A stretch of 64,000 bases of DNA from Metabacillus rhizolycopersici. GTDB taxonomy: Bacteria > Bacillota > Bacilli > Bacillales > Bacillaceae. The DNA lies in assembly GCF_020075705.1 (NCBI RefSeq), contig NZ_JAIQUM010000018.1, positions 9,285 to 73,284 of the forward strand, written 5' to 3'. The number at the start of each line of letters is the position of its first letter. Position 1 is the stretch's first letter. This document shows, piece by piece, positions 933-63,897 of the stretch. The translations under genes were made by a program, and so were the position numbers. The notes beneath the pieces were generated by a model that made no database searches, was not told the DNA's origin, and worked only from the letters and a program-made list of their open reading frames with translations.

Positions 933-937
933 CTTCA

Positions 938-971
938 CCTTAGTTTTTTAAAGAGGGTAGCTAGAACCTCT
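938..971 (-). promoter_or_regulatory. preQ1-I riboswitch aptamer
   Basis: On the minus strand the segment reads AGAGGTTCTAGCTACCCTCT followed by TTAAAAAACTAAGG. This is the compact preQ1-I consensus: a P1 stem AGAGG/CCTCT, a conserved loop beginning TTCTAGC, and an A-rich tail ending in CTAAGG that forms the pseudoknot. An intrinsic terminator and then the VUT transporter gene follow. The match to the known consensus is close to exact. Confidence 0.93.
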
Positions 972-1090
972 ACCGCTTATAGCGGATATTATCATTTACT
1001 AGCGTAATAATACCTCATTTTTCGACAAATTGCTATTCGAATGAATGATTTAGGGCAATTTTGAAAACATTTGAACAAAAGAACTGAAGC

Positions 1091-4160: not shown

Positions 4161-4691
4161 TTAAGACAAAAATAACGCTCCATAACCCATTGCCCCGATA
4201 ATAACAAAAGCTGGATGGACCTTCCACTTTTCTAATAAGAAAAAACTAACAATTATTAAGATGAGCGTTTGCCATGTTCCCGTATCTTTATACGATGTAA
4301 AAAAGAAATTAAATGCCATTACCCCTAATAATACTGCAATCACTGGTCTAATAAAATTTGTCATTCTTTTTACCTTTGGTGATTCCTTGTATTTATATAA
4401 AAAACTTAAGAGTGCAATCATTAAAATGAGTGATGGTGCGACTGTAGCAAAAACCCCAACAAACCCTCCTAATACACCAGCTTGCTGATAGCCAATATAC
4501 CCAGCCATCTTTGTTGCAATCGGGCCTGGAAGTGCATTTCCTAGAGCTAATACTTCACTGAATTCATTTAGATTCATCCAACCATATCGATCGACAACCT
4601 CATTTTCTATTAAAGGGATCGAAGCAGGACCACCTCCGTAACCTAAAATTCCTGGAATGAAAAAGGCTAAGAATAGTTCCCAATAAATCAC
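4161..4691 (-). CDS. chrA: Chromate transporter, short-chain CHR family, subunit 2
   Basis: The 176-residue membrane protein carries the CHR signatures GYGGGPASIPLIE and LGNALPGPIATKMAGYIGY near the N-terminus, followed by four or five hydrophobic segments. Short CHR proteins function in pairs and export chromate by proton/anion exchange. Its ATG overlaps the stop of the preceding paralogue by four bases, indicating translational coupling. An intrinsic terminator follows. Confidence 0.9.
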   Translation of the reverse strand: MIYWELFLAFFIPGILGYGGGPASIPLIENEVVDRYGWMNLNEFSEVLALGNALPGPIATKMAGYIGYQQAGVLGGFVGVFATVAPSLILMIALLSFLYKYKESPKVKRMTNFIRPVIAVLLGVMAFNFFFTSYKDTGTWQTLILIIVSFFLLEKWKVHPAFVIIGAMGYGALFLS

Positions 4692-13977: not shown

Positions 13978-14208
13978 AACCATCCTTTTTGTTAGAATTA
14001 AGGTCCTGATACTTTGAAAGTGTTCTAAAAAACTCAAGTGGTAACAGTACAGAATCTTTATTAAATCTTATTTTAAGTTTATTGCACTTTTTTGTTCTCT
14101 GAATATATTTAATCATTATTTATGCTAAAATTCTCCAAACATAACAGCTTATAGAAGATAAATTCTATGTTGCATGTACATGTTGTAACTATTCTTTTAA
14201 AAGATGAT

Positions 14209-15432
14209 CTAAAATCCTTCGTCCTCTTCGCTTATCCTTTTTGTTTCCTTTTTTAATATTTCTGCTTTATCCGTGTTTTCCCAAGGCAGTTTGATATCTG
14301 ATCTTCCAAAGTGTCCATAACACGCAGTTTGAAAATAAATGGGTTGCCTTAGATTTAACATCTGAATAATACCTGCAGGGCGAAGGTCAAAGTATTTACG
14401 TATTAGTTGAACGATCTTTTTTTCTTCTATTTTTCCTGTACCAAACGTTTCAACGGCTATTGAAACAGGGGTAGCTACTCCAATAGAGTAAGCGAGTTGA
14501 ACTTCACATTTTTCTGCAATCCCTGCTGCAACAATATTTTTAGCTACATAACGTGCTGCATAGGCTGCCGAACGGTCAACCTTTGTTGGATCTTTTCCTG
14601 AAAATGCACCGCCCCCATGACGTGAAAATCCACCATACGTATCCACAATAATTTTGCGACCAGTTAAGCCTGCGTCTCCCTTTGGTCCACCAATGACGAA
14701 TCGACCAGTCGGGTTAATAAAATATTTTGTGTTATCATCAATTAATTTAGTTGGTACCACGTGAGCAATTACATGACGAAGCAGATCTTTTTTTATTTGT
14801 TCTAATTCTACTTCAGGATCATGTTGCGCAGAAATAACGATTGTATCAATGCGAACAGGCTTCACGTCTTCGTATTCTACTGTAACCTGAACTTTTCCAT
14901 CTGGACGTAAATAACTAATCATCCCATTTTTTCTCACTTTTGTTAAACGTTTAGCTAGGTTGTTGGACAGAGAGATTGGTAATGGCATTAGCTCCTGGGT
15001 TTCATTGCAAGCAAAACCAAACATCAATCCTTGATCTCCGGCACCAATTGCTTCTATTTCATCCTCATTCATTAAACCTTCACGTGCCTCTAGAGCTTTA
15101 TTAACTCCCATAGCTATATCAGAAGATTGCTTATTCAACGCAATTAAAATCTTACATGTATCCGCATCAAAACCATATTCAGTGTTTGTATAACCGATAT
15201 TTCGAATGGTTTCTCTCACTATTTCTAAGAAATCTACTTTGCTATCCGTTGTAATCTCTCCCGATAAAACAACTAAGTCTGAACTAACTGAACTTTCACA
15301 AGCAACGCGGGCATTTGGATCTTTTTCAAAAATGGCATCTAATACAGCATCAGAAATTTGATCACACATTTTATCAGGATGACCTTCTGTAACCGATTCT
15401 GAAGTAAATAGGTGTCGTTGTTCTTTAAACAT
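14209..15432 (-). CDS. metK: S-adenosylmethionine synthetase
   Basis: The 407-residue enzyme makes SAM from methionine and ATP. Signatures include [36 protein letters not shown] and the P-loop-like [19 protein letters not shown]. It starts at ATG 15432, nine bases after GGAGG. No S-box riboswitch consensus is seen upstream, which is unusual for metK in Bacillaceae. Its place next to the MTA salvage genes, and substitutions in the N-terminal domain compared with the usual Bacillus enzyme, suggest it may be a second, locus-dedicated metK (inference). Confidence 0.94.
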
Positions 15433-15809
15433 TACTTTCTCACCTCCAAAAATTATCATTTTTTATACCATTTATCTTTTACGCCAATGTTTTCAAGGAT
15501 CATATGAAAAGCTTTGAATAATAAATTACTCTATCAGGTATCTGAGACTTTTAAAAAGTTTCCTTTTGGAATTTTCCATACAGAGTTAATTTCTTCAACG
15601 AACATTAGAACGATTTTAAAATATGATACGGCAATTAGATAATAAAGGTCTGTACTATTTCCTAGCTAAAATAAATAAAATTTAACACCTTACACAAAGT
15701 TCAAAACCCGTGAATTTCTGGGCTTACGTATTGCTTATCTAAATTAAAAATGGTCCACTGTATCTAACAGTAAACCACCACCACAAAAGTAATTTCCATA
15801 GATTAATTT
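15433..15809. other. Intergenic region upstream of metK
   Basis: 377 AT-rich bases. I looked for S-box and other SAM-riboswitch consensus on the minus strand and found none. A weak hairpin near 15752-15778 may end the mtnK-mtnA transcript. No other feature is visible. Confidence 0.4.
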
Positions 15810-16868
15810 TTATTTTAAATTTTGAAGTTTACTCGAATACTGACCTGCTTTATCAGGATAAACAATACCTTGTTCTGTCACAAAGGCAGTTACAAGTGAA
15901 AAAGGCGTAATATCAAATGCAGGGTTATACACTCTTATCCCTTGTGGTGCTATCCGTTTTCCTAATCCAACCATAATTTCATCTTCCGAACGTTCTTCTA
16001 TCTGAATTTCTTTTCCGGTTGGTGTACTTAAATCAATAGATGATAGCGGAGCTGCTACATAAAATGGCAATTTATGCTCTTTTGCTAAGATAGCTACTGT
16101 ATAGGTTCCAATTTTATTAGCAACATCACCATTGGCAGCCACCCGATCCGTTCCAACAATAACAGCCTGCACTGATTGATTGGCCATAACAACCGCTGCC
16201 ATATTATCACAAATAAGGGTCACATCAATTCCTGCCTGCTGCAATTCCCATGTAGTAAGACGTGCCCCCTGAAGAACAGGACGAGTTTCATCTACAAATA
16301 TCTTTAAATTCCACTCTCGTTCTTTAGCGATATAAAATGGAGCTGTTGCAGTTCCATACTTGGCAGTCGCTAAACTCCCCGCATTGCAATGTGTAAGAAT
16401 TCCCATACCGTCTTGAAATAAGCTAAGAGCATGTTCTCCAATATCTCGACAGACTTTTTCATCTTCTTCTTGAATCTGTAAAGCTTCTTTAAGAAGAATT
16501 TTCTTAATAACCTCTACATTTGATCCTTGTTTTTGTTCTTGATAAGCTCTTTCTTTTAAACGTTTTAATGCCCAGAACAGGTTAACAGCTGTCGGCCGTG
16601 CTGTTGCTAAAAAATCCGATTTTTTTTCTAAATCTTCAATGAAGGTACTCACATTATTTTCATGGTTGTTTTGAACTCCTAAATAGAGACCATAGGCAGC
16701 CGCCATCCCAATAGCTGGTGCACCACGTACTTTCAAAAATCTAATCGCTTCCCATACCTCTTCTATAGTAGACAGTGACAAAAACACAGTTTCTTCAGGA
16801 AGGAGGGTCTGATCGAGTAATATTAGTTGATCTTTTTTCCATTGAACGGATTGAATAAACTCACTAAT
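15810..16868 (-). CDS. mtnA: Methylthioribose-1-phosphate isomerase, apparently starting at ATT
   Basis: It isomerises MTR-1-P to methylthioribulose-1-[11 protein letters not shown] (catalytic Cys), [12 protein letters not shown] and [18 protein letters not shown] (catalytic Asp) are present. The first conventional codon in frame is GTG 16787, but the 27 codons before it encode conserved MtnA sequence ([20 protein letters not shown], cf. VEWKE...LP.ET in B. subtilis). No ATG, GTG or TTG occurs between the upstream stop and that GTG. ATT at 16866-16868, nine bases after AGGAGG and overlapping the mtnK TAG, is the best start (352 residues). Confidence 0.9.
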
Positions 16869-18096
16869 CTTGATCTACCTCCTGATTTTTAACATACCTG
16901 ACTAAAGAAGTGAGATCACCGATTTTTTGTGCTGTTTCCCTTTTCAATACTAATTGTTGTCCAATCGCGAGGGCTAATCTTTCGCCTTTTGCTCTTAATT
17001 TGGGATCGTTTATGCTTTCCAAATCAGAAACATGGGCTAAACCGATTACTCGACGCATCATTTTACATCCCGCATATCCTAATGAATCTTGAAGCAAACG
17101 TAGTATATAATCATCTTCATATCCCTGTATGGATGCATAAGGCTCACTAGCTTTTCCCTTCCATAAAATTCTAAATTCCTCTTCAAAGACTATCCAAATT
17201 TCCTCTACTGTATTTAACAAATAATCTTGGTATTGAAGCCGTTCTTCTTGATCTAGGGTATGTCCTTCATGAGAGCAAAAATTGAGTAATAGATTGGCAA
17301 TCACTGCTCCAATGTCAAAACCCATCGGCCCGTAAAAGGAAAACTCTGGATCAAACACTTTCGTGTCCGTTTCTGTGACCATAATACTTCCTGTATGAAG
17401 GTCTCCATGGATAAGTGCCTGAGCATGAGTAAGGAATTTTTCCTTTAACTTAGTGATTTCAAGTTTAAGCTCACCATGACCCCAAATCTCTTCGATTACT
17501 TCCTTAATTAGCGGGTTAAATTGATTCGTTTTCGCATCGTAATATGGATCAGTAAACACAAGATCTTCAGTAATTTTACACAATTCAGGATTTATAAATT
17601 GTACTACTTTCTGTTTTTTATCCTGATGATCCAACGCTAAATCTGAAGTTAAAAATAGAGTTCTAGCTAGAAACGTGCCTATATGTTTTGCAAAATAAGG
17701 ATAACGATTACGAGAAATGAGTCCTTTACGCATGATGATGTGACTGGATAAATCCTCCATAACGGTTAATGCCAACTCTTTATCGTAATGATAAACTTTT
17801 GGGACTAAGCCAGGGCAAATACTATTTTGTATCATTAATGCTTCACTCTCAATACGGGCCCTATCCAATGTTAACGGCCATGACTCCCCAACAACGCGAG
17901 CATAAGGAAGTGCTTGTTTTATAATGACACTTTTACCTGAGGAACCATTTTCTATTATTCGGAAAACTAGATTTAGATTTCCATCACCTATTTCCTTGCA
18001 AATTAGCTGAGCATTTTCCGAAAATAAACCCGGAATCTTTCTAACATATTCGATTATTTCTAACTCACTAAGCACATGGTAACTTGAATTTGACAT
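16864..18096 (-). CDS. mtnK: 5-methylthioribose kinase
   Basis: The 410-residue kinase phosphorylates methylthioribose with ATP, the first committed step after MTA nucleosidase. Signatures include [13 protein letters not shown] [29 protein letters not shown], the catalytic loop [11 protein letters not shown] and the metal-binding [11 protein letters not shown]. The conventional ATG has a GGGAGAGG site. Its last codons overlap the mtnA start, so the two are translationally coupled, in the same order as mtnK-mtnA of B. subtilis. No S-box is seen in the divergent promoter region. Confidence 0.95.
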
Positions 18097-18254
18097 GAAT
18101 CGCCTCTCCCTCTCATAGATTCTCTCCCGAGTAAAATCAACTATGTGTTTGTCGTGGCTCTATTAAAAGCTAGACAAAACAACTGTTTTTTTTAGTTTAC
18201 TCACTAAAAAGGTCATGTCATCATATGTTGTTTTTAAGAGAGAGGTGATTAATT

Positions 18255-19439
18255 ATCGAAAATAACAACTTTATAGTCAAAGCATCCAACCAAATGAATC
18301 GCCTTCCTAATCAATTTTTCTCCACCTTAGTTGGAAAAGTGAATGGGTTTATCAATGCTGGGTATGATGTTATTAATCTAGGACAAGGCAATCCAGACCT
18401 TCCTACTCCGCCACATATTGTTCAATCATTACAAAAGGCTGTGGAAAATCCGATCAATCATAAATATCCGCCGTTTACAGGGAAAATTGAACTGAAGAAA
18501 GCTATATGTACTTGGTATCAAAACGAACATGGGGTTACATTGGATCCGGAGAAGGAAGTAGCTATATTGTTTGGAACAAAAACCGGACTCATCCAACTAT
18601 CACAAATTTTGCTGAATCCAGGTGACATGGCTCTCGTCCCTGACCCAGGCTATCCTGATTATTGGTCAGGAATCGCCATTGCCGGTGCTGAGATGGTCCC
18701 TATGCCGCTAAATTCTACTAAAGGATTTTTCCCTGATTTTTCAACGCTTACACCGTACCAACGCAAACATACAAAATTAATGTTTCTTAATTACCCATCA
18801 AACCCGACAGGCGCTTGTGCGACTAGTTCCTTCTTTGATGAAGCCATTTGCTTTGCAGAGAAAAACAATATTGTTATTGCCCATGATTTTGCCTATGGAG
18901 CAATCGGCTTTGACGGGCACAAACCGATCAGTTATTTATCCCGACCAGGTGCTAAGGATGTTGGCATCGAATTTTACACGTTATCAAAAACCTATAATAT
19001 GGCTGGATGGCGGGTCGGATTTGCACTTGGTAATCAAGAGCTGATTCGCTTAATTAATGAACTTCAAGACCACTATTTTGTGAGCTTATTCGGTGGGATT
19101 CAAGACGCGGCTATAACAGCTTTGACCTCCTCTCAAGGAAGTGTCCGAGAACTTGTTGACACCTACGAATTACGGCGCAATGCCCTTTTTGAAGAACTAA
19201 ATAAAATTGGCTGGAATGCACCGCTTCCTAAAGGATCCTTCTTTGCATGGCTGCCTATTCCAAAGGGTTACACATCAAGCCATTTTGCTGACACCTTATT
19301 AGAAAAAGGGAAAGTTGTTGTGGCTCCAGGAATCGGTTTTGGCAAATACGGAGAGGGTTATGTTCGAGTAGGATTTCTTACTGAAGAGGAACGCATTCGG
19401 GAAGCAGTGCAGCGAATTTCTAAATTATCTATCTTTTAA
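18255..19439 (+). CDS. mtnE: MtnE-type aminotransferase, apparently starting at ATC
   Basis: A PLP-dependent class I aminotransferase converting ketomethylthiobutyrate to methionine. It carries LGQGNPDLPTPPHIV, NYPSNPTGACA, AHDFAYGAIGFDG and the PLP lysine in YTLSKTYNMAGWRVG. The first ATG (18294) has no RBS and would drop residues SNQMNR that align with SHVLKE before LPKQFF in B. subtilis MtnE. Upstream the frame stays open to ATC 18255, placed six bases after AGAGGTGA; ATT 18252 is an alternative. It diverges from mtnKA. Confidence 0.88.
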   Translation: MENNNFIVKASNQMNRLPNQFFSTLVGKVNGFINAGYDVINLGQGNPDLPTPPHIVQSLQKAVENPINHKYPPFTGKIELKKAICTWYQNEHGVTLDPEKEVAILFGTKTGLIQLSQILLNPGDMALVPDPGYPDYWSGIAIAGAEMVPMPLNSTKGFFPDFSTLTPYQRKHTKLMFLNYPSNPTGACATSSFFDEAICFAEKNNIVIAHDFAYGAIGFDGHKPISYLSRPGAKDVGIEFYTLSKTYNMAGWRVGFALGNQELIRLINELQDHYFVSLFGGIQDAAITALTSSQGSVRELVDTYELRRNALFEELNKIGWNAPLPKGSFFAWLPIPKGYTSSHFADTLLEKGKVVVAPGIGFGKYGEGYVRVGFLTEEERIREAVQRISKLSIF

Positions 19440-19545
19440 AGTATCGTGTTGAATGAACAAAAAACTTGGTTAATCAACAAAACTTACTAACATCACTATC
19501 TTTTAGATCTCTCTACAACCTTTATATTCAGGAGGTGAAATGTTT

Positions 19546-20766
19546 GTGACAACTGACCAAAACTATGTTACTGCTACTTATTTAGTTCATGGTCATTTTG
19601 ATTTTTACAAAAAAGCGCAAGAAATCGCTATAGGACTTACTGTGGGAAGTTGGACAGATCTCCCTAATGCTAAAAAAGAACAAATGATACCGCATTTAGG
19701 GAAAGTAATCGAAGTAAAAGTGCTAAATCATAATTCAGATGAAATACCTCAAGCTCTATTAATGATCGGTTACCCGCTTGTTAATATGAATCCGGATATT
19801 CCCTCGATCCTCACAACAGTCTTTGGTAAATTATCAATGGACGGTCAGATTAAATTAATAGATTTGCATATACCAGATTCCCTTCTTTCGCAATTTCCAG
19901 GACCGCGTTTTGGAATCGATGGAATAAGAAGGCTGTTAGGAGTTCACGACCGACCATTACTAATGAGCATCTTCAAACAATGTATCGGGCTTCCTATAAA
20001 TGAACTAGAAAAAGAATATCAAAATCAAATTGATGGACAGGTGGATCTTATAAAAGATGACGAGATTTTCTTTCGTGATGATTATGCACCCGTTTTAAAA
20101 CGAATAGCTACTTTTGAAAAACAAAATCAACACCATAAAGAAACAACCGGAAAAAAAGTACTTTATGCAGTTAACCTAACCGGACCAGTTACTCAACTTC
20201 TTGAGAAAGCAAAACATTTAAGTGATGCGGGAGCATCTTGCTTATTACTAAATGTAGCTCCATATGGATTTGATATTCTCCACCGAATAGCCGCAGATCC
20301 AGATGTGAATATTCCGATTATGGCACATCCAGCCTTTACCGGTTCGTTTTACCCTTCACCTTATTATGGTTTATCTGCTCCGTTGCTTTTAGGTAAATTA
20401 ATGCGTTTATCAGGTGCTGACATTGTTCTCTTCCCCTCTCCTTACGGTTCTGTAGCGATGCCAAAAGATGAAGCTTTGAATTTAGCCAAACAACTAAAAT
20501 ACCCTAACAAAATACATCGGCCAGCATTTCCAACACCTTCGGCAGGAATACATCCAGGTCTTGTTCCAACACTATATCGCGATTTTGGAGATCATTTCAT
20601 TGTTAATGCGGGGGGAGGAATTCATGGACATCCTCAAGGCACTTCAGCTGGAGGAAAGGCATTTACTGATGCGATTCAAGCAGTCGTATCAGGTCGAACA
20701 CTTGCGGAAGCAGCAGAAGACTCTGCTGAACTTCGTTCGGCAATTAATAAATGGGGTGCGTTATAA
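19546..20766 (+). CDS. mtnW: 2,3-diketo-5-methylthiopentyl-1-phosphate enolase (RuBisCO-like)
   Basis: About 406 residues of the RuBisCO-like protein family, which enolises the diketo intermediate of MTA salvage. Visible motifs are GLTVGSWTDLP, LLMSIFKQCIGLP, VDLIKDDEIFF (metal/carbamate lysine region) and GGGIHGHPQGTSAGGKAF. GTG 19546 lies seven bases after GGAGGTGA; an ATG two codons earlier is almost on top of the RBS. It is the first gene of mtnW-X-B-D, and its stop overlaps or abuts the mtnX start. Confidence 0.93.
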   Translation: MTTDQNYVTATYLVHGHFDFYKKAQEIAIGLTVGSWTDLPNAKKEQMIPHLGKVIEVKVLNHNSDEIPQALLMIGYPLVNMNPDIPSILTTVFGKLSMDGQIKLIDLHIPDSLLSQFPGPRFGIDGIRRLLGVHDRPLLMSIFKQCIGLPINELEKEYQNQIDGQVDLIKDDEIFFRDDYAPVLKRIATFEKQNQHHKETTGKKVLYAVNLTGPVTQLLEKAKHLSDAGASCLLLNVAPYGFDILHRIAADPDVNIPIMAHPAFTGSFYPSPYYGLSAPLLLGKLMRLSGADIVLFPSPYGSVAMPKDEALNLAKQLKYPNKIHRPAFPTPSAGIHPGLVPTLYRDFGDHFIVNAGGGIHGHPQGTSAGGKAFTDAIQAVVSGRTLAEAAEDSAELRSAINKWGAL

Positions 20767-20768
20767 CC

Positions 20769-21446
20769 TTGGGCTCAATCAAAAAAATGACCATTTTTTG
20801 TGATTTTGATGGAACAATCACAAAAAGTGACAACATCATCAATATTATGAAGTATTTTAATCCTCCTGGTTGGGAAACGATTAAGAATGATATTTTGACT
20901 GGACGAATGAGTGTTCGAGAAGGAGTAGGACGTATGTTTTGGCTATTACCAACATCACACCGAGAAGAAATCACTCATTACGCTATAAAACAAACCAAAA
21001 TCCGAACAGGTTTTGATCAATTTATTCAATACTGCCAGGATAGCAATATTCGCCTTCTCATTACTAGCGGAGGAATAGACTTTTTCGTTTTCCCTATTTT
21101 ATCTAACTATCCTATTCCAAATCATGATATTTATTGCAATTCTTGCGATTTTAGTGGCAAACAAATCAAAATTCTATGGCCTTTTTCTTGTGATGCACTA
21201 TGCACCAAAGATTGTGGAATGTGTAAACCAAGTATTCTTCGTTCTCTTTCAGCAAATGATGATATAAAAATTGTCATTGGAGATAGTATCACAGATTTAG
21301 AAATTGCTAAATTAGCTAAACTTGTTATCGCAAGAGATTTCCTTTTACAGAAATGCAAAGAACAGCCTCTTCCTTATAAAGAATTTGATACATTTTTAGA
21401 TGTAGTTAATATATTAAAACAAATTAAGCGTGGTGAAGACCTATAA
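20769..21446 (+). CDS. mtnX: 2-hydroxy-3-keto-5-methylthiopentenyl-1-phosphate phosphatase
   Basis: About 225 residues of the HAD phosphatase superfamily: CDFDGTIT (nucleophile Asp), ITSGGIDFFVFP and GDSITDLEIAK. It dephosphorylates the MtnW product. The start is uncertain. TTG 20769 is taken here; an ATA at 20763, overlapping the mtnW TAA as ATAA, has better spacing from GGGGTG and mirrors the mtnX-mtnB junction; ATG 20787 has no RBS. A conserved Cys-rich stretch (CDALCTKDCGMCKPS) is as in B. subtilis MtnX. Confidence 0.92.
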   Translation: MGSIKKMTIFCDFDGTITKSDNIINIMKYFNPPGWETIKNDILTGRMSVREGVGRMFWLLPTSHREEITHYAIKQTKIRTGFDQFIQYCQDSNIRLLITSGGIDFFVFPILSNYPIPNHDIYCNSCDFSGKQIKILWPFSCDALCTKDCGMCKPSILRSLSANDDIKIVIGDSITDLEIAKLAKLVIARDFLLQKCKEQPLPYKEFDTFLDVVNILKQIKRGEDL

Positions 21447-22117
21447 CCAAAAATGAGTTTGAAAATATCAATCTTGAAGCAATCCAACAGGCCTTTAAAA
21501 CATTACAAACTGCTAAAGGAACTCTATCACAAAGAGGGTGGTTTCCAGCAACTAGTGGGAACATGTCCGTTCGTATCAAATGTTCTTCATTAGAAAATAA
21601 TCAGCCTATTATCGCAATAACCTCTAGTGGTAAAGACAAATCGGTTCATACTTCAGAAGACTTTCTTTTAGTAAATTTGAATGGAGATCTTTTTTATCCT
21701 ACTAACTTAAAACCTTCTGCTGAAACTTTAATTCACACCTCTATATATCAATTGATCCCTAATTGTGAAGCAGTTTTTCATGTCCATACAATTTATAATA
21801 ATCTCATTTCGGCTCTTTACGGTGATCAAGGGAAAGTAATTTTCATGAAACATGAAATGCTTAAAGCATTTAATATTTGGAAAGAAGATGCTTCAATAAC
21901 AATTCCAATTGTAGAAAATCATGCTAATATTCCTAAATTAGCAGAAGAAATCAGGAGAGTTATCCACCCCGAGGTACCAGGAGTATTAATCAAAAACCAT
22001 GGAATTTATGTATGGGGTGATAGTGACTTTGCTACTAAACGCCATTTAGAGGCATTTGAATTTCTATTTGAATATCAAATTAACATGTTTTTTTTAGAGA
22101 AATTTAATCAAACTTAA
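21443..22117 (+). CDS. mtnB: Methylthioribulose-1-phosphate dehydratase, apparently starting at ATA
   Basis: A class II aldolase-fold Zn enzyme with VHTIYNN preceded by FHVH (metal histidines), SGKDKSVHTSEDFL, LKPSAETLIH and IKNHGIYVWG. The first ATG in frame (21563) would cut off the nearly invariant GWFPATSGN, which is encoded just before it. The 40 upstream codons are open with no ATG, GTG or TTG. ATA 21443, overlapping the mtnX TAA and six bases after GGTGA, is the only sensible start, giving 224 residues. Confidence 0.92.
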   Translation: MTKNEFENINLEAIQQAFKTLQTAKGTLSQRGWFPATSGNMSVRIKCSSLENNQPIIAITSSGKDKSVHTSEDFLLVNLNGDLFYPTNLKPSAETLIHTSIYQLIPNCEAVFHVHTIYNNLISALYGDQGKVIFMKHEMLKAFNIWKEDASITIPIVENHANIPKLAEEIRRVIHPEVPGVLIKNHGIYVWGDSDFATKRHLEAFEFLFEYQINMFFLEKFNQT

Positions 22118-22141
22118 ATCATAAAAAAGGAGAAATGAACT

Positions 22142-22675
22142 ATGGCAACAATTAGAATGCGTAATACCAATAAAAGATTAACACAAGAACAAGAGGTTAA
22201 AAGTTTTTTAGATGAACAAGGAGTACTTTATGAACATTGGGATATGGAAAAGTTACCAAATGATCTGCATGATAATTTTACCCTTTCTGATGAGAAAAAA
22301 GAAGAAATTCTTTCCCTCTTTGATTCCGAAATTAGATCCCTTGCAAATCGACGTGGCTATGAAGAATGGGACATTGTTGCATTGTCCGATGCAACTCCTA
22401 ATTTAGATGAGCTCCTAAAGAAGTTTGAACAGGTACATGTTCATACCGAAGATGAAGTTCGTGCAATCACAGCAGGAAATGGGATCTTTACAATCAAAGG
22501 CGATTCCGGTTATTTCGATGTAGAATTGTCTGCTGGGGATGTAATTTCTGTTCCTGTTAACATACCCCATTTCTTTACGTTAATGGAAAACCGTCAAGTA
22601 GTGGCCGTTCGATTGTTTATTGATGCTTCAGGCTGGGTTGCTCATCTATATGATGATCCGGACTTCAAATCGTAA
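22142..22675 (+). CDS. mtnD: Acireductone dioxygenase
   Basis: The 177-residue cupin oxidises acireductone to ketomethylthiobutyrate and formate (Fe form). Metal ligands are visible in HVHTEDEVR and later in IPHFFTL. MATIRMRN, RRGYEEWDIVALSD and VISVPVNIPH match the family. Conventional ATG with AAGGAG. It is last in the mtnWXBD operon and is followed by a strong terminator. The active site reads HVH where many family members have HHH, but the two liganding histidines are kept. Confidence 0.94.
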   Translation: MATIRMRNTNKRLTQEQEVKSFLDEQGVLYEHWDMEKLPNDLHDNFTLSDEKKEEILSLFDSEIRSLANRRGYEEWDIVALSDATPNLDELLKKFEQVHVHTEDEVRAITAGNGIFTIKGDSGYFDVELSAGDVISVPVNIPHFFTLMENRQVVAVRLFIDASGWVAHLYDDPDFKS

Positions 22676-22721
22676 TAGAAATGAGTGATTAATTTTAAAC
22701 TAAGAAACCGATGTTGTGTAA

Positions 22722-23561
22722 TCAGCCTCTTTCATCTGAAAGAGGCTTTTCCATATTATCATTAACAAGTTTATCTTTTAACAATTTATGATCAAGAAGC
22801 CAAGATATACCGTCATGATCCACGATGACTTTTAAAAAATCATCCTTTCCGGATTTATCGTTTGATTTCCACCTAGTATAGGTGATTGACACTAACATCG
22901 ATACAAATGCATCACGAAAATAATCATCCTTGAAATATTCGTTATTCCAGCCCCTTATCCTTTCGGTGGAACTTGATCGTCCGTTTATTTTTTTCCATGC
23001 GTCTACTAAAAACGTTTTTTCTTTTTCAACATCCCTATTTCCTTCTATTTTAAACGGAAAATTACTATAGGGTCTTGTTTCTAAATATACTCTCTTCGTT
23101 GCTCCTGATATAGGTAAACGACTTATCCAATCACTAATCTTAAGATAACTTTCATAGTGCCACCTTTGATTAAAATGAGTGCTATCATTTTTTTCAAGCT
23201 GTACATCACGAATCGTATATTCCGGTTTTACTGGAGTACTTAAACTAGCACCTGTCGTAAATATGATATATTCCTTTAAATAAGAATTCCTCGCCTTTTG
23301 ATATCTGTTTTCAGAAAAAAATTTAATACTACGGTACAGAAATTCGAACGCATCTTCGCTTCCATTTGTTTTCATCTCCCAATACATTCTATCCTTATAC
23401 ATAATTACAACACAATCTCTTTCATTTTGGTAACTAAAACCGAGGCTTACTCCAACAAACAAAGAATTTTGCTGAATTTCACTAAAATCCAATGGTGGTA
23501 TTTCTTTGTTTTCTTGTCTCTTATCTCGCCAAGGGTTACTTTTCTCATTTACTAATTTCAT
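22722..23561 (-). CDS. Hypothetical protein, 279 residues
   Basis: The protein is soluble and charged, without a signal peptide or membrane helix, and rich in aromatic residues (WRDKRQ, YWEMKTNGSEDAFEFLYRS, RWHYESYLKISDWIS). I do not recognise the family; it has a flavour of defence or phage-associated hypotheticals, but nothing in it proves that. It starts at ATG 23561 after GAAGGTGATGT. Its C-terminus is encoded within the mtnD terminator hairpin, suggesting it was acquired or extended late. Repeat A remnants and an IS lie just upstream. Confidence 0.55.
   Translation of the reverse strand: MKLVNEKSNPWRDKRQENKEIPPLDFSEIQQNSLFVGVSLGFSYQNERDCVVIMYKDRMYWEMKTNGSEDAFEFLYRSIKFFSENRYQKARNSYLKEYIIFTTGASLSTPVKPEYTIRDVQLEKNDSTHFNQRWHYESYLKISDWISRLPISGATKRVYLETRPYSNFPFKIEGNRDVEKEKTFLVDAWKKINGRSSSTERIRGWNNEYFKDDYFRDAFVSMLVSITYTRWKSNDKSGKDDFLKVIVDHDGISWLLDHKLLKDKLVNDNMEKPLSDERG
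22725..22750 (+). terminator. Terminator of the mtnWXBD operon
   Basis: GCCTCTTTC/GAAAGAGGC stem with ATCT loop followed by TTTTCC. The hairpin doubles as the last coding bases of the convergent gene (its PLSDERG tail), so the two units share this DNA. Confidence 0.88.
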
Positions 23562-23581
23562 AGTACATCACCTTCTTTCGA

Positions 23582-23775
23582 ACAAAAGCGAAATTCCTCA
23601 ATCAGCATCGGGCAAATAAGACGTTCATGAATCGAAGATGCTCTTTCCCCTTAATTAGTGGCTTGACCCTAGATGCAGTCAAAAACACGATGTCCTGTCG
23701 CACTGACTTTACTTACCCGTCCTGTGCTTCAGATCTGGATGGCAAAGCGCTTATCCACAATACAAGAATTTAATA
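23582..23775. repeat. Decayed copy of repeat A
   Basis: AAAAGCGAAATTCCTCAATCAGC, TCGGGCAAATAAGACG, then TTAGTGGCTTGACCC keep the order of repeat A, but the paired ends are eroded. The segment ends with GCGCTTATCCACAATACAAGAA, the alternative tail seen in copy 2. No gene lies between 23562 and 23885. Confidence 0.55.
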
Positions 23776-23885: not shown

Positions 23886-25090
23886 TTAAGTACTGAGGAT
23901 TTTGGACATTTTTTTCATAACGATCGGTGAGAAAAACAAATACATTTGTTCTCCACATTTTTCGCATGAGAACATCGGAGGAGTTGTTGGATCTCCATCA
24001 TCCATTAAATCACAATCTCTTACTACATTTAAAGGAATCTCTTCTTTTTCATGACACGTTTGATTTTAACGATATTTCTACCCACTGTTTGTTGAAAGAT
24101 TGATACGAGTTCTTTTGCTTTTTTCTTTATACGACGTGAATACACTTCATAATATCGGATTGTCTTAAAATTCTCATCAGGAATATACCGAATTAGACGA
24201 CCGATAAACTCCTCTACCGAAATTGTTTCTCTCTTCTCTTTGCCATCTGTTTTATCAATATATTTAAAGGTGACGAACTGTCCATCATATTCCTCAATCC
24301 GCCCTAAAGATATCACGGGTCGACGAATATAACGGCCAATATACTTTAGCTGCTCCTTTACATTCCCTCTTTGTTTTGGCGCATACACATAGAAGCCTTT
24401 CGCATTTGCAGAAAAGGCTTTTTGTAAAAGGGGCTAGATTCGCTTTTTCTCTTTTTCACTCACATTCCTTCTAATCAACTTAAGTACCACTGTCTGCCAT
24501 TGTTTTCTCAACAAATCAAACGGAATGTAGTTATATGTTTTCCACTCATCATTCTCTTTCATACCTCCCATAGTCAAGAGCATATGGACATGGGGATTAA
24601 AATTAAGGCGCGAGCCAAACGTATGTAAGCCAGCAATAACTTCAGAAGTCACCTTCATTTTCTTTTCAAAAAAATTCTGAACGATTCGTACTGCCTGATC
24701 CATAAATTCTTTTAATAAATATCGGTGCTTTAAGAAAATATCTCGTAACCCTTTATCAATCGTAAATATCATATGGCGATGATTGACTTGAAAGACTTCT
24801 TCTTGTAGAACCCTTCCCCGTTCCTCCATCTCTCCACAACTACATGTTGTACAAAACCTTCCTTTACATCGGTATGGAACTCGCTTAACATCATGACAAC
24901 CTTCGCATACAAATAATTTAAATCCATTCTTTGGATTACCACAATCTCGAAACTTTTCCACCTCTTTTATCACGTTAGAGCGAAGTAACCGATCATATTT
25001 ACTTTTGAACTTCTCCCAGTGTTTGTTATGATCAAAAAAGAGCGTTCTTAAAATATTTGTATCCATACCCTTATTTTCTCGAAAATCCAA
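23886..25090 (-). pseudogene. IS91-like (HUH) transposase, inactivated by an amber stop and a frameshift
   Basis: Reading leftward from 25090: an N-terminal zinc-ribbon (VCEGCHDVK, C-K-GRFCTTCSCGE), RHMIFTIDKGLR, then the HUH motif NPHVHMLLTMGG. The frame hits TAG at 24434-24436 but continues in the same frame with FYVYAPKQRGN, YIGRYIRRPVIS (catalytic-Tyr region) and YYEVYSRR. After 24029 a -1 shift is needed to reach a CEKCGEQMY finger and the original stop at 23886. Together this is about 400 codons, full IS91 length, but it cannot encode one protein. Confidence 0.8.
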
Positions 25091-25338: not shown

Positions 25339-26661
25339 TTAATATAAATCTTTTATTTCCTTTTGATATAAATCATGCAATTTTAGTTGGGTCTCCGTAT
25401 TAACAAACGCATTCTCTTGTTCTTCCTTAATTGATGAAGGAATCTCAAACATAGTTTCCATGTTAGTAGGAAGGGCTTGATGAGGGACAGAGATATTTGG
25501 TATTTTTCTGGATATTTTTTCGTGTGTTGCTAAGTGAAATCCCCATAAACCGAAGGAAGGAACAATTACATTGTATCCCTTAGTATAGAGGCCTGTTCTC
25601 TTTATTGTTTTACCAATGCTCCAAAATACTTGTGGTGCATCCTCAGGTGAATTAGATTGGCAAACTAATGCACCATCTTCCGATAAAAGATTGGCTACTT
25701 TACTGAATAATTCCTTTGTATATAATGAACTTAAGATTGAATTAACAGGATCTGGAAAGTCAATGATAATTACATTATATTGTTGTAGCTCTCCTGCTAG
25801 ATATTTCTTGGCGTCTTTGATGTGAACATGAACCCTGCTATCTAAAAATGAGCGATTGTTTTGAGCTAATAGTGATGGATTGGTTTTGGCAAGTTCAATG
25901 ATCATTGGATCAATGTCAACAAGATCAACATGTTTCACATCTGGATATTTAAGAACTTCACGTAATGCAAGACCGTCCCCTCCACCTAAAATGAGAACAC
26001 GTTCATTGGAAGCTGCCACCTCCATCACCGGGTAAACTAACGCTTCATGATAATGTCTTTCATCCAAAGAACAAAATTGTAACTCCTGGTCTATATACAA
26101 ACGTAGATCATTGGCCTCAACTAATAATATGTCTTGAAATTCACTTGCCCCATGATATAGAATGTTATGTTTTCCAGCTGTCATTTCTTTTAACTGCTTC
26201 ATATCCCATTCATTTCCGCGATCATCGCGTAATTGAAACAATGATCGAGATTCTATGTTTTTTTCTATCGAGGCGTTTGAAGTAAGATTTATTTTTTTCA
26301 TTACAGGTTTGTTGTTGGATTCTTCTCCGCGAGAGAGCTCATACACGTTTGTACGCTTAGCTTCTATTTTTTCAAGAATCGCTTTTAACGCCGGCCATAT
26401 ATCCTGGTTTCCACATGTATATAAATCTAATGCCGCATATCCATGTTCCGGCCATGTATGAATTGAAACATGGGAAGTTGATATACCAATGACCCCCGTA
26501 ACCCCCTGAGGTGAAAAAGAATGGAAATGAGTTGATAAAATCTCCATTCCTAATTGATTGATTGCTTTCGTTAACAATTCTTTTAACTGTTCCGCATTAT
26601 TAAGAATATCTTCGCTGCACTCGTACGCATCGATAATAAAATGCTGTCCTCTCATATCCAT
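25339..26661 (-). CDS. Fused S-adenosylmethionine decarboxylase / spermidine synthase
   Basis: About 440 residues. Residues 1-120 are a prokaryotic SpeD-type pyruvoyl AdoMet decarboxylase (THFHSFSPQGVTGV, SHVSIHTWPEHGYAALD, LYTCG). Residues 125-440 are a SpeE-type aminopropyltransferase (LILGGGDGLALREVLKYP, LVDIDPMIIELA, IIDFPDP, CQSNSPEDAP). One chain could decarboxylate SAM and use the product to aminopropylate putrescine, releasing methylthioadenosine for the nearby mtn genes. The residue before the presumed pyruvoyl serine is Thr (STSH), where many SpeD proteins have Glu. ATG 26661 is preferred over GTG 26673 for RBS spacing. Confidence 0.88.
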   Translation of the reverse strand: MDMRGQHFIIDAYECSEDILNNAEQLKELLTKAINQLGMEILSTHFHSFSPQGVTGVIGISTSHVSIHTWPEHGYAALDLYTCGNQDIWPALKAILEKIEAKRTNVYELSRGEESNNKPVMKKINLTSNASIEKNIESRSLFQLRDDRGNEWDMKQLKEMTAGKHNILYHGASEFQDILLVEANDLRLYIDQELQFCSLDERHYHEALVYPVMEVAASNERVLILGGGDGLALREVLKYPDVKHVDLVDIDPMIIELAKTNPSLLAQNNRSFLDSRVHVHIKDAKKYLAGELQQYNVIIIDFPDPVNSILSSLYTKELFSKVANLLSEDGALVCQSNSPEDAPQVFWSIGKTIKRTGLYTKGYNVIVPSFGLWGFHLATHEKISRKIPNISVPHQALPTNMETMFEIPSSIKEEQENAFVNTETQLKLHDLYQKEIKDLY

Positions 26662-27069
26662 AGATAGAAACACTCCTAATTAGTATACTAGAGATATATT
26701 GTCATAGTACGATTACCTTCCCGAAATCTTTTTAATAATCGCATATTTTCTAATTACCCCCATTTTCTTCTTATACTATATGTTCAGGCTATTAATTAAG
26801 TTTGTACTCATTTCTTAATTTATCAAAATGGTGAAGAAGCATATTTTCATATTTATAAAACAAGTAACTATACCATTTCAATCTCTATCATATTTCTTGT
26901 ATAAAGGTAAGCGGAAAGAACCCGCTTACTGTTTTATAGCTTCCAAATTAGCCTATAAAAAGACTAGTTTCCTTCAATCACACAGTGTAGAGCTAGCTCG
27001 TCCAATCCAAACGCCCTCTCGGCTGCTATTATTGTAGAGCATGACAACTCTTTTTTTAAAAATAAGAAA
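26662..27069. other. Intergenic region, possible relic of an ABC-F-type gene
   Basis: No intact gene. Just before 27070 one frame reads SAAIIVEHDNSFFKN, which resembles the switch-histidine region of ABC-F ATPases, and another frame around 26945-27030 resembles the preceding part. The similarity is short and the frames differ, so this is a weak suggestion of a decayed gene. Confidence 0.25.
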
Positions 27070-63096: not shown

Positions 63097-63897
63097 TTAT
63101 AAAAGAACTTTATTCATACTACCACTCTTATAACCGATTAAATCTAATGTAATATATTTATAGCCGTAACTTACTAGCTCATTTGAAATCAATTCATGAT
63201 GTTCTAAAACGATTTTCATATCGTCTGGCTCGACTTCAATCCTTGCGATTTCTTCATGCGTTCGTACCCGTACTTGTCGAATCGACAGCGACTTTAAAAA
63301 GGCTTCTGCTTTTTCTACCTTTGTTAGCTTTTCAATCGTAATTTTCTCACCATATGCAATTCGTGATGATAAACAAGCGAACGAAGGCTTATTCCAAGTT
63401 GGTAAGTCAAACTCACGGGAAAGCTCACGAATTTCATCCTTGAAGAGGTTTGCTTCTTGTAGCGGTCCATGTATGCCTCTCTCCTTGGCTGCTTTCATTC
63501 CAGGACGAAATTCATTGAGGTCATCCGCAATGACGCCGTAGACAACATTTTGAAACCCTTCTTTTTCCATAAAGGGCATTAAATGCTCGAATAAACTGCT
63601 TTTACAAAAATAACAGCGATTTTTATCGTTCTCTGTATAGCCTGGAATCGCTAATTCGGACGTTTCAATCACACGATGATTTGCTCCAATCTTTTTAGCT
63701 AATTCCTTCGCTTCTAATAGCTCACTGGATGGATAGGTTTCAGAATCAGCGGTCACAGCTAATACACGGTCAGTGCCTAATGTATCGACAGCGACTTTTA
63801 ATAAGAATGTGCTATCTACCCCGCCAGAAAATGCCACAACGACTGAGTTCATTTCTCGGAGAATCGACACTAACTTCTGATATTTTTCGTTTATCAT
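63097..63897 (-). CDS. larE: ATP-dependent sacrificial sulfur transferase LarE
   Basis: 266 residues. PP-loop motif AFSGGVDSTFLLKVA, conserved NRCYFCKSSLFEHL and the sacrificial cysteine in SFACLSSRIAYG. It adds sulfur from its own cysteine to the nickel-pincer cofactor precursor of lactate racemase and related enzymes. ATG follows AAAGGAG. Its terminator separates it from larC2; an upstream gene ends about 70 bases before it. Confidence 0.92.
   Translation of the reverse strand: MINEKYQKLVSILREMNSVVVAFSGGVDSTFLLKVAVDTLGTDRVLAVTADSETYPSSELLEAKELAKKIGANHRVIETSELAIPGYTENDKNRCYFCKSSLFEHLMPFMEKEGFQNVVYGVIADDLNEFRPGMKAAKERGIHGPLQEANLFKDEIRELSREFDLPTWNKPSFACLSSRIAYGEKITIEKLTKVEKAEAFLKSLSIRQVRVRTHEEIARIEVEPDDMKIVLEHHELISNELVSYGYKYITLDLIGYKSGSMNKVLL

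Follow-up and report, generated by a model that had tools for sequence, protein, structure and literature searches.

To our knowledge, translation initiation at AUU, AUC or AUA (jointly AUH; ATG, GTG and TTG are referred to as xTG) has been described for only a handful of bacterial genes. The AUU start of Escherichia coli pcnB reportedly limits translation of this gene. The infC gene (AUU/AUA start) likewise carries a near-cognate codon after a strong Shine-Dalgarno sequence (SD), and its product is initiation factor 3 (IF3) itself, autoregulated in E. coli. For Staphylococcus aureus, PMC13009471 reports an AUA start for infC, as well as conserved non-canonical starts with an extended SD, mapped by Ribo-RET, for ccpN (AUA) and cvfC1 (AUU). 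Reporters with such AUA/AUU starts stayed below AUG, with approximately 10% of AUG output in poor medium and, for the AUA of ccpN, up to 30% in rich medium (PMC13009471). Here, we analyzed a stretch of 64,000 nt of Metabacillus rhizolycopersici (contig NZ_JAIQUM010000018.1, positions 9,285 to 73,284; the window), in which three genes of a methionine salvage (mtn) cluster, mtnA, mtnE and mtnB, very likely start at AUH codons as well. These starts would be of a known, attenuating kind (infC, pcnB and staphylococcal ccpN), although three of them in one metabolic cluster are unusual. Whereas infC encodes the factor itself, ccpN and cvfC1 are single genes for a regulator and a small protein, and pcnB is a single gene in another phylum, the mtn genes encode metabolic enzymes, and their initiation sites are deduced from the DNA rather than mapped. 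In its enzymes and gene order, the cluster resembles the S-box mtnKA/mtnWXBD operons of Bacillus. However, it differs from them in lacking the S-adenosylmethionine (SAM) riboswitch (S-box) that marks their leaders, and in the AUH starts of three genes. Among the papers that the open PMC library listed for the terms used, none dealt with AUH starts of mtn genes.

The region around 15000-23000 was read together with the open reading frame (ORF) list and the translations of both plus-strand AUH genes. As proposed in the preliminary description, ATT 16868 (mtnA), ATC 18255 (mtnE) and ATA 21443 (mtnB) are present behind an SD, and each codon lies 7 nt after the GGTN of that SD (Table 1). The frames read TAG-ATC-AAG-ATT, TGA-TTA-ATT-ATC and TGA-AGA-CCT-ATA, respectively, so that in-frame stops inside or beside the SD leave no possible upstream xTG for any of the three genes. 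The earliest canonical codons are internal (GTG 16787, ATG 18294 and ATG 21563), and the conserved GWFPATSGN of MtnB precedes the last of these, again as described earlier. With spacing expressed in one SD register for all sites, in which d=4 equals GGTN+7, the SD scores range from 13 to 21.5, and d=4 holds at 14/14 mtn AUH sites. SD scoring of ATT 18252 and ATC 18255 gave the same value for mtnE, and only the 18255 position is common to all loci.

Table 1. Features of the mtn cluster and its metK flank (window positions; d, spacing from SD to codon; loci as named in the text).
Feature	Position	Strand	Description	Basis
metK	14209..15432 (14209-15459 as flank)	-	SAM synthetase adjoining the cluster, ATG start	protein family
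mtnA	15810..16868	-	methylthioribose-1-phosphate isomerase, 352 aa from ATT	PF01008; residues 6-343 align with 2yrf
mtnA proposed start	16866..16868	-	ATT; in-frame TAG nine bases upstream	ATT in 5/5 AUH loci
mtnA SD	16877..16883	-	AGGAGGT	aligned spacing d=4
mtnK	16864..18096	-	methylthioribose kinase, ATG start; stop overlaps mtnA ATT	protein family
mtnK-mtnE intergenic region	18097..18254	.	divergent, without S-box; conserved block by mtnE TTTACTCACTAAAAAGG..CATCATATG	
mtnE SD	18240..18249	+	GAGAGGTGAT	d=4
mtnE proposed start	18255..18257	+	ATC	ATT in L002, L003, L068; xTG there in L130-L133
mtnE	18255..19439	+	aminotransferase, 394 aa from ATC	protein family match
mtnW	19546..20766	+	RuBisCO-like enolase, GTG start	protein family; alignment of loci
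mtnX	20769..21446	+	phosphatase, TTG start (probably conventional)	protein family; alignment of loci
mtnB SD	21430..21436	+	GTGGTGA, weakest SD of the three	d=4
mtnB proposed start	21443..21445	+	ATA, overlapping mtnX TAA stop	ATA in 5/5 AUH loci
mtnB	21443..22117	+	methylthioribulose-1-phosphate dehydratase, 224 aa from ATA	protein family; 2irp alignment
mtnD	22142..22675	+	dioxygenase, ATG start	protein family

Related loci were collected by a scan with MtnW, which yielded Bacillus sp. ISL-34 (L001), Peribacillus frigoritolerans RU293 (L002), an uncultured Bacillus metagenome-assembled genome (L003) and Brevibacillus parabrevis (L004), and by a family search that added the draft genome of Bacillus sp. 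V5-8f (L068, genome G037). The window, L001, L002, L003 and L068 make up the five AUH loci; four Neobacillus-type loci (L130-L133) represent a sister clade, and L004-L006 and L069-L079 served as canonical comparison copies. Alignment with these close relatives, the check called for at the outset, returned ATT for mtnA and ATA for mtnB in all five AUH loci, and ATC, ATT, ATT and ATT for mtnE in the four loci with the start region in order, with a further ATT in the L001 remnant. No such constancy is seen for mtnW, mtnX and mtnD, whose start codons in these loci can be ATG, GTG or TTG. The canonical mtn copies in L004-L006 use ATG or GTG, and all 14 canonical mtnA copies (L004-L006, L069-L079) have one of these two codons near the expected position. 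The recurrence of the same codons in five genomes makes a sequencing error or strain-specific mutation a practically negligible explanation; gene calls on other, near-identical assemblies (P0007, P0008, P0010, P0243) also found no upstream xTG start. A concatenated protein tree splits the five AUH loci from L130-L133 with full support. It is unrooted and weak within the AUH group, and therefore does not tell which start-codon state is older. No additional AUH locus turned up when the G725 and G047 families were searched, and plasmid searches gave no copy above 62% identity.

The codons that follow the proposed starts of mtnA and mtnB evolve like the rest of each gene. For mtnA, codons 2-28 hold 72 synonymous and 52 non-synonymous differences in 270 pairwise comparisons (rest of the gene, 825 and 483 in 3236); for mtnB, codons 2-41 hold 105 and 83 in 365 (rest, 429 and 456 in 1821). 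The query residues of MtnA given in Table 1 align with a solved MtnA chain, and residues 24-216 of MtnB, including GWFPATSGN, align with the solved chain 2irp. In mtnE, the conserved N-terminus claimed earlier was not recovered, as codons 2-14 are variable (6 synonymous and 26 non-synonymous in 39 comparisons; rest, 349 and 171 in 1140). The evidence for an in-frame AUH codon ahead of a conserved N-terminus is thus weaker for this gene, and its start is indicated by the SD, the frame and the start codons of the sister clade. In L130-L133, mtnE is 86% identical and carries TTG, ATG, TTG and GTG at the same codon, which marks this codon as the start site. In three of these loci the codon lies one base further from the SD, meaning that the forms with TTG/GTG and with ATT are one 1-nt indel apart.

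These observations also bear on initiation elsewhere, either at the internal ATG or GTG codons or by frameshifting from the preceding gene. Some JGI or lgn gene calls do start internally, including the 325-aa MtnA proteins P0007, P0008 and P0010 and the 381-aa MtnE P0243, and further JGI MtnE records (P0246, P0251, P0254, P0257-P0260) have internal starts and 381 aa as well; in addition, mtnK and mtnA overlap. However, internal starts would cut into the parts of MtnA and MtnB that are alignable with the solved structures, the best canonical SD score is only 8.5 in mtnA and mtnB (12 at mtnE codon 106), and L003 mtnE also lacks the internal ATG at codon 14. Frameshifting from a preceding gene is moreover not open to mtnE, which is oriented away from mtnK. 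We consider initiation elsewhere very unlikely. The NCBI proteins of Bacillus sp. V5-8f (P0015, P0255 and P0144) begin at exactly the three AUH codons (MHKS.., MLNKK.. and MTEK..). The M. litoralis proteins, when placed on the window DNA, start at the ATC six bases upstream (-6) in the case of MtnA, at ATC 18255 in that of MtnE and at an ATC inside the gene in that of MtnB. The JGI MtnE records P0244, P0247 and P0252 show L at the start position, the first residue being seemingly printed literally.

The spacing of the three starts has a counterpart in the gene for IF3. In 5/5 genomes searched (L134-L138), infC has an ATT behind an SD, and the four distinct infC sites that were scored have d=4, the same as all mtn AUH sites. 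This ATT is the putative infC start, judging from its counterparts in E. coli and S. aureus. Ordinary starts, sampled as 156 canonical starts near the 5' end with an SD score of at least 12, have d=4 in 24 cases (15%), with a mode of 2. The probability that three genes agree in spacing by chance is approximately 0.004, for a comparison that was made after seeing the data. The ccpN gene was considered as a second spacing control, but in-frame GTG codons overlap its SD, and the gene is not shown in L140.

The frequency of such sites elsewhere was assessed with 400 kb of each cluster-bearing contig of ISL-34 and P. frigoritolerans, plus the 19.6-kb L001, in which 632 reciprocal ORF pairs were reduced to 222 non-overlapping genes; mtnE was left out of the scoring. 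Ranked by how far an AUH (or CTG) site outscored every canonical one, mtnB (16) and mtnA (14.5) came first, followed by the next gene with 10. A canonical start column with an SD score of at least 8 in both genomes was present in 201 of the 222 genes, and approximately 40 genes show some AUH excess, read as mostly internal codons or spurious ORFs. The two genomes are close (median identity, 94.9%), which makes this screen a limited control. It replaced a version without SD scoring that was dropped, as the genomes were too close and 5' untranslated regions appear conserved; that version had missed mtnA and mtnB themselves, owing to an in-frame ATG or GTG that precedes them by a few codons in L002.

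Within the window, an SD scan of 49 genes chosen by hand out of the 72 listed ORFs flagged mtnA, mtnE, mtnB and three others. The latter are an internal ATC in 4161-4691, which has a GTG with SD, an internal ATT in 25339-26673, which has an ATG with SD, and 63097-63897, where a weak-SD ATG is directly followed by ATA.

Several observations weigh against AUH initiation at one or another of these sites. For mtnA, the window has a second AUH candidate in the ATC two codons ahead of the ATT. This -6 codon reads ATC, ATC, ATG (L002), AAG (L003) and GGG (L068) across the AUH loci, and M stands there in 14 of the 30 MtnA records listed; nine of these 14 stem from JGI or lgn gene calls, which presumably saw a canonical codon. 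The -6 ATG may therefore serve as the mtnA start in some relatives. As a general start, the -6 codon was rejected on account of the AAG and GGG; it varies together with the mtnK end that overlaps it and encodes an acidic tail, and it lies 3 nt from GGAGG. At position 0 itself, P0018 shows V rather than I, and P0011, P0125 and P0250 print M, with the underlying codon unseen. For mtnB, L002 lacks a close stop before the ATA and has an in-frame GTG four codons upstream, inside the SD, and the Neobacillus-type genes use an ATG approximately five codons further on, 16-18 nt from GGAGG. The mtnE copy of L002 (8785-9963) is broken by a frameshift and stops, and that of L001 (7924-8311) is reduced to remnants. 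Finally, the agreement in spacing was noticed post hoc in three genes, the infC ATT is a start by analogy, and ccpN in L139 and L141 appears to have GGTG+6 by eye. Use of the AUH codons as starts is well supported by their conservation in five loci, the sister-clade mtnE codons and the infC-like spacing.

From these sequence facts, their conservation, the lack of good alternatives and the common spacing, we infer initiation at the AUH codons, a reduced yield and sensitivity to IF3. An SD 7 nt before the codon, as for the infC ATT, would bring the near-cognate codon into the P site for inefficient reading by the initiator tRNA; output of mtnA, mtnE and mtnB would consequently fall below the AUG level and respond to IF3, while mtnK, mtnW, mtnX and mtnD use ordinary starts. 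This mechanism is taken from published work, and such low, IF3-sensitive output is somewhat more probable than not. The best overall explanation, which we hold to be reasonably likely, is that this S-box-less cluster has its mtnA, mtnE and mtnB translated from AUU, AUC/AUU and AUA, with an IF3-sensitive output below that of AUG. It states what the starts do and not why they were kept, and it is compatible with both accounts of the latter that are considered below. If it is true, the three AUH starts, grouped in a single enzyme cluster with infC spacing and kept in several lineages of Bacillaceae, would form a natural system in which to study the requirements of a functional near-cognate start and a possible tuning of metabolism by IF3. 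It would also mean that automatic gene calls shorten or misplace genes with AUH starts.

Why the starts persist allows two possible readings, a maintained control device or tolerated drift. Under neutral or relaxed drift, starts would have weakened without regulatory purpose in a partly redundant cluster, with the SDs keeping enough translation. Under an HKY model fitted to 476 four-fold sites, the probability of no third-base G at any tip in the three genes is 0.41, and missing reversion was accordingly rejected as proof of selection; third-base invariance of the AUH codons was rejected as well, as 24-32% of the four-fold columns of mtnB and mtnA do not vary either. Redundancy is visible in three of four relatives (G001, G002 and G003), each with another mtnA of 53-61% identity, which in G001 and G002 is part of a complete mtn cluster that carries two S-boxes (L005, L006). 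ISL-34 and P. frigoritolerans RU293 each carry another mtnE in an S-box cluster, and the mtnE pseudogene of L002 and the remnants of L001 represent decay in two genomes that have another cluster. The Neobacillus-type stretches that were read lack mtnA in 4/4 and mtnK in 3/4 cases. Furthermore, the two forms of the mtnE start are set apart by a 1-nt indel, and the final base of the mtnA ATT is also part of the mtnK stop in 4/5 loci, where a change to ATG would destroy that stop. In contrast, mtnA and mtnB stay under purifying selection, mtnB keeps ATA in all five loci although ATG would leave the mtnX stop of the window intact, and V5-8f keeps all three AUH starts even though a search at E<=1e-100 found no mtnA in it besides the AUH copy. 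On balance, drift is a credible account that falls a little short of being favored.

The other account holds that the AUH codons tie three enzymes to IF3 or initiator-tRNA supply, replacing the S-box riboswitch. No Rfam match at E<=1 was found in window 14000-23600 and no S-box in the AUH clusters of the window, L001-L003 and L068, whereas the canonical loci L004-L006 have two S-boxes each. The spacing is identical to that of infC, an AUA start responds to growth medium according to PMC13009471, and three of the seven genes in one cluster have AUH starts, with none convincing elsewhere in the sample. However, the other four genes of the cluster do without them, and S-boxes are also absent from the Neobacillus-type loci, which have ordinary mtnE starts, and from the mtnA loci L069-L073, L069 being the stretch read around the second mtnA of G003. 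As S-box-free loci with ordinary starts exist, S-box loss and AUH starts are not tied to each other. Coordinated control is unlikely in our view. The stricter version, in which deliberately weak AUH starts with infC-like geometry co-regulate the three enzymes and IF3 or initiator-tRNA supply sets methionine regeneration instead of a SAM riboswitch, is slightly less likely still. Of the original proposal of rare starts under shared translational control, the use of AUH codons as starts is well supported and the control itself is only possible.

All seven salvage enzymes from methylthioribose onward (MtnK, -A, -W, -X, -B, -D and -E) are encoded in the window. The mtnW gene most likely starts at GTG 19546; ATG 19540 was rejected. 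The proposed ATAA overlap with the preceding stop holds for mtnB and most likely does not for mtnX, which judging from the aligned codons has a conventional start at TTG 20769. This column reads TTG, GTG, ATG, GTG and GTG in the five AUH loci. The SD is far from this TTG and nearer to ATA 20763 (d=1), which is also conserved and overlaps the mtnW stop. The ATA was considered the less likely start, since codon 7 of the listed ORF is xTG in the five AUH loci as well as L131 and L133; in L132, an ATG replaces the ATA and codon 7 is GTC.

Upstream of mtnE, a conserved block TTTACTCACTAAAAAGGTCATGTCATCATATGTT was observed at window 18190-18240, with a similar TTTACTC motif toward mtnK. An mtnA more than 80% identical to that of the window occurs in 3/43 genomes of one family, 1/193 of another and 1/397 sampled across the taxonomic order (overlapping samples), which points to scattered gain or loss. 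Next to the cluster lies an IS91-family transposase fragment (window 24434-25090), which may bear on the scattered distribution. The cluster is flanked by metK and by a fused S-adenosylmethionine decarboxylase/aminopropyltransferase gene (speD-speE, 25339-26673), which suggests a SAM-to-polyamine module with its own recycling of methylthioadenosine; a 74%-identical speD-speE fusion is located near the cluster in L002. Beside mtnD, window 22722-23561 encodes a 279-aa protein with no Pfam or NCBIfam match; L002, L003, L068 and L130-L133 conserve it close to the cluster (62-70% identity), and L001 does not. Elsewhere, a PreQ1 riboswitch on the minus strand (window 934-976) is the only Rfam match at gathering score in the window.

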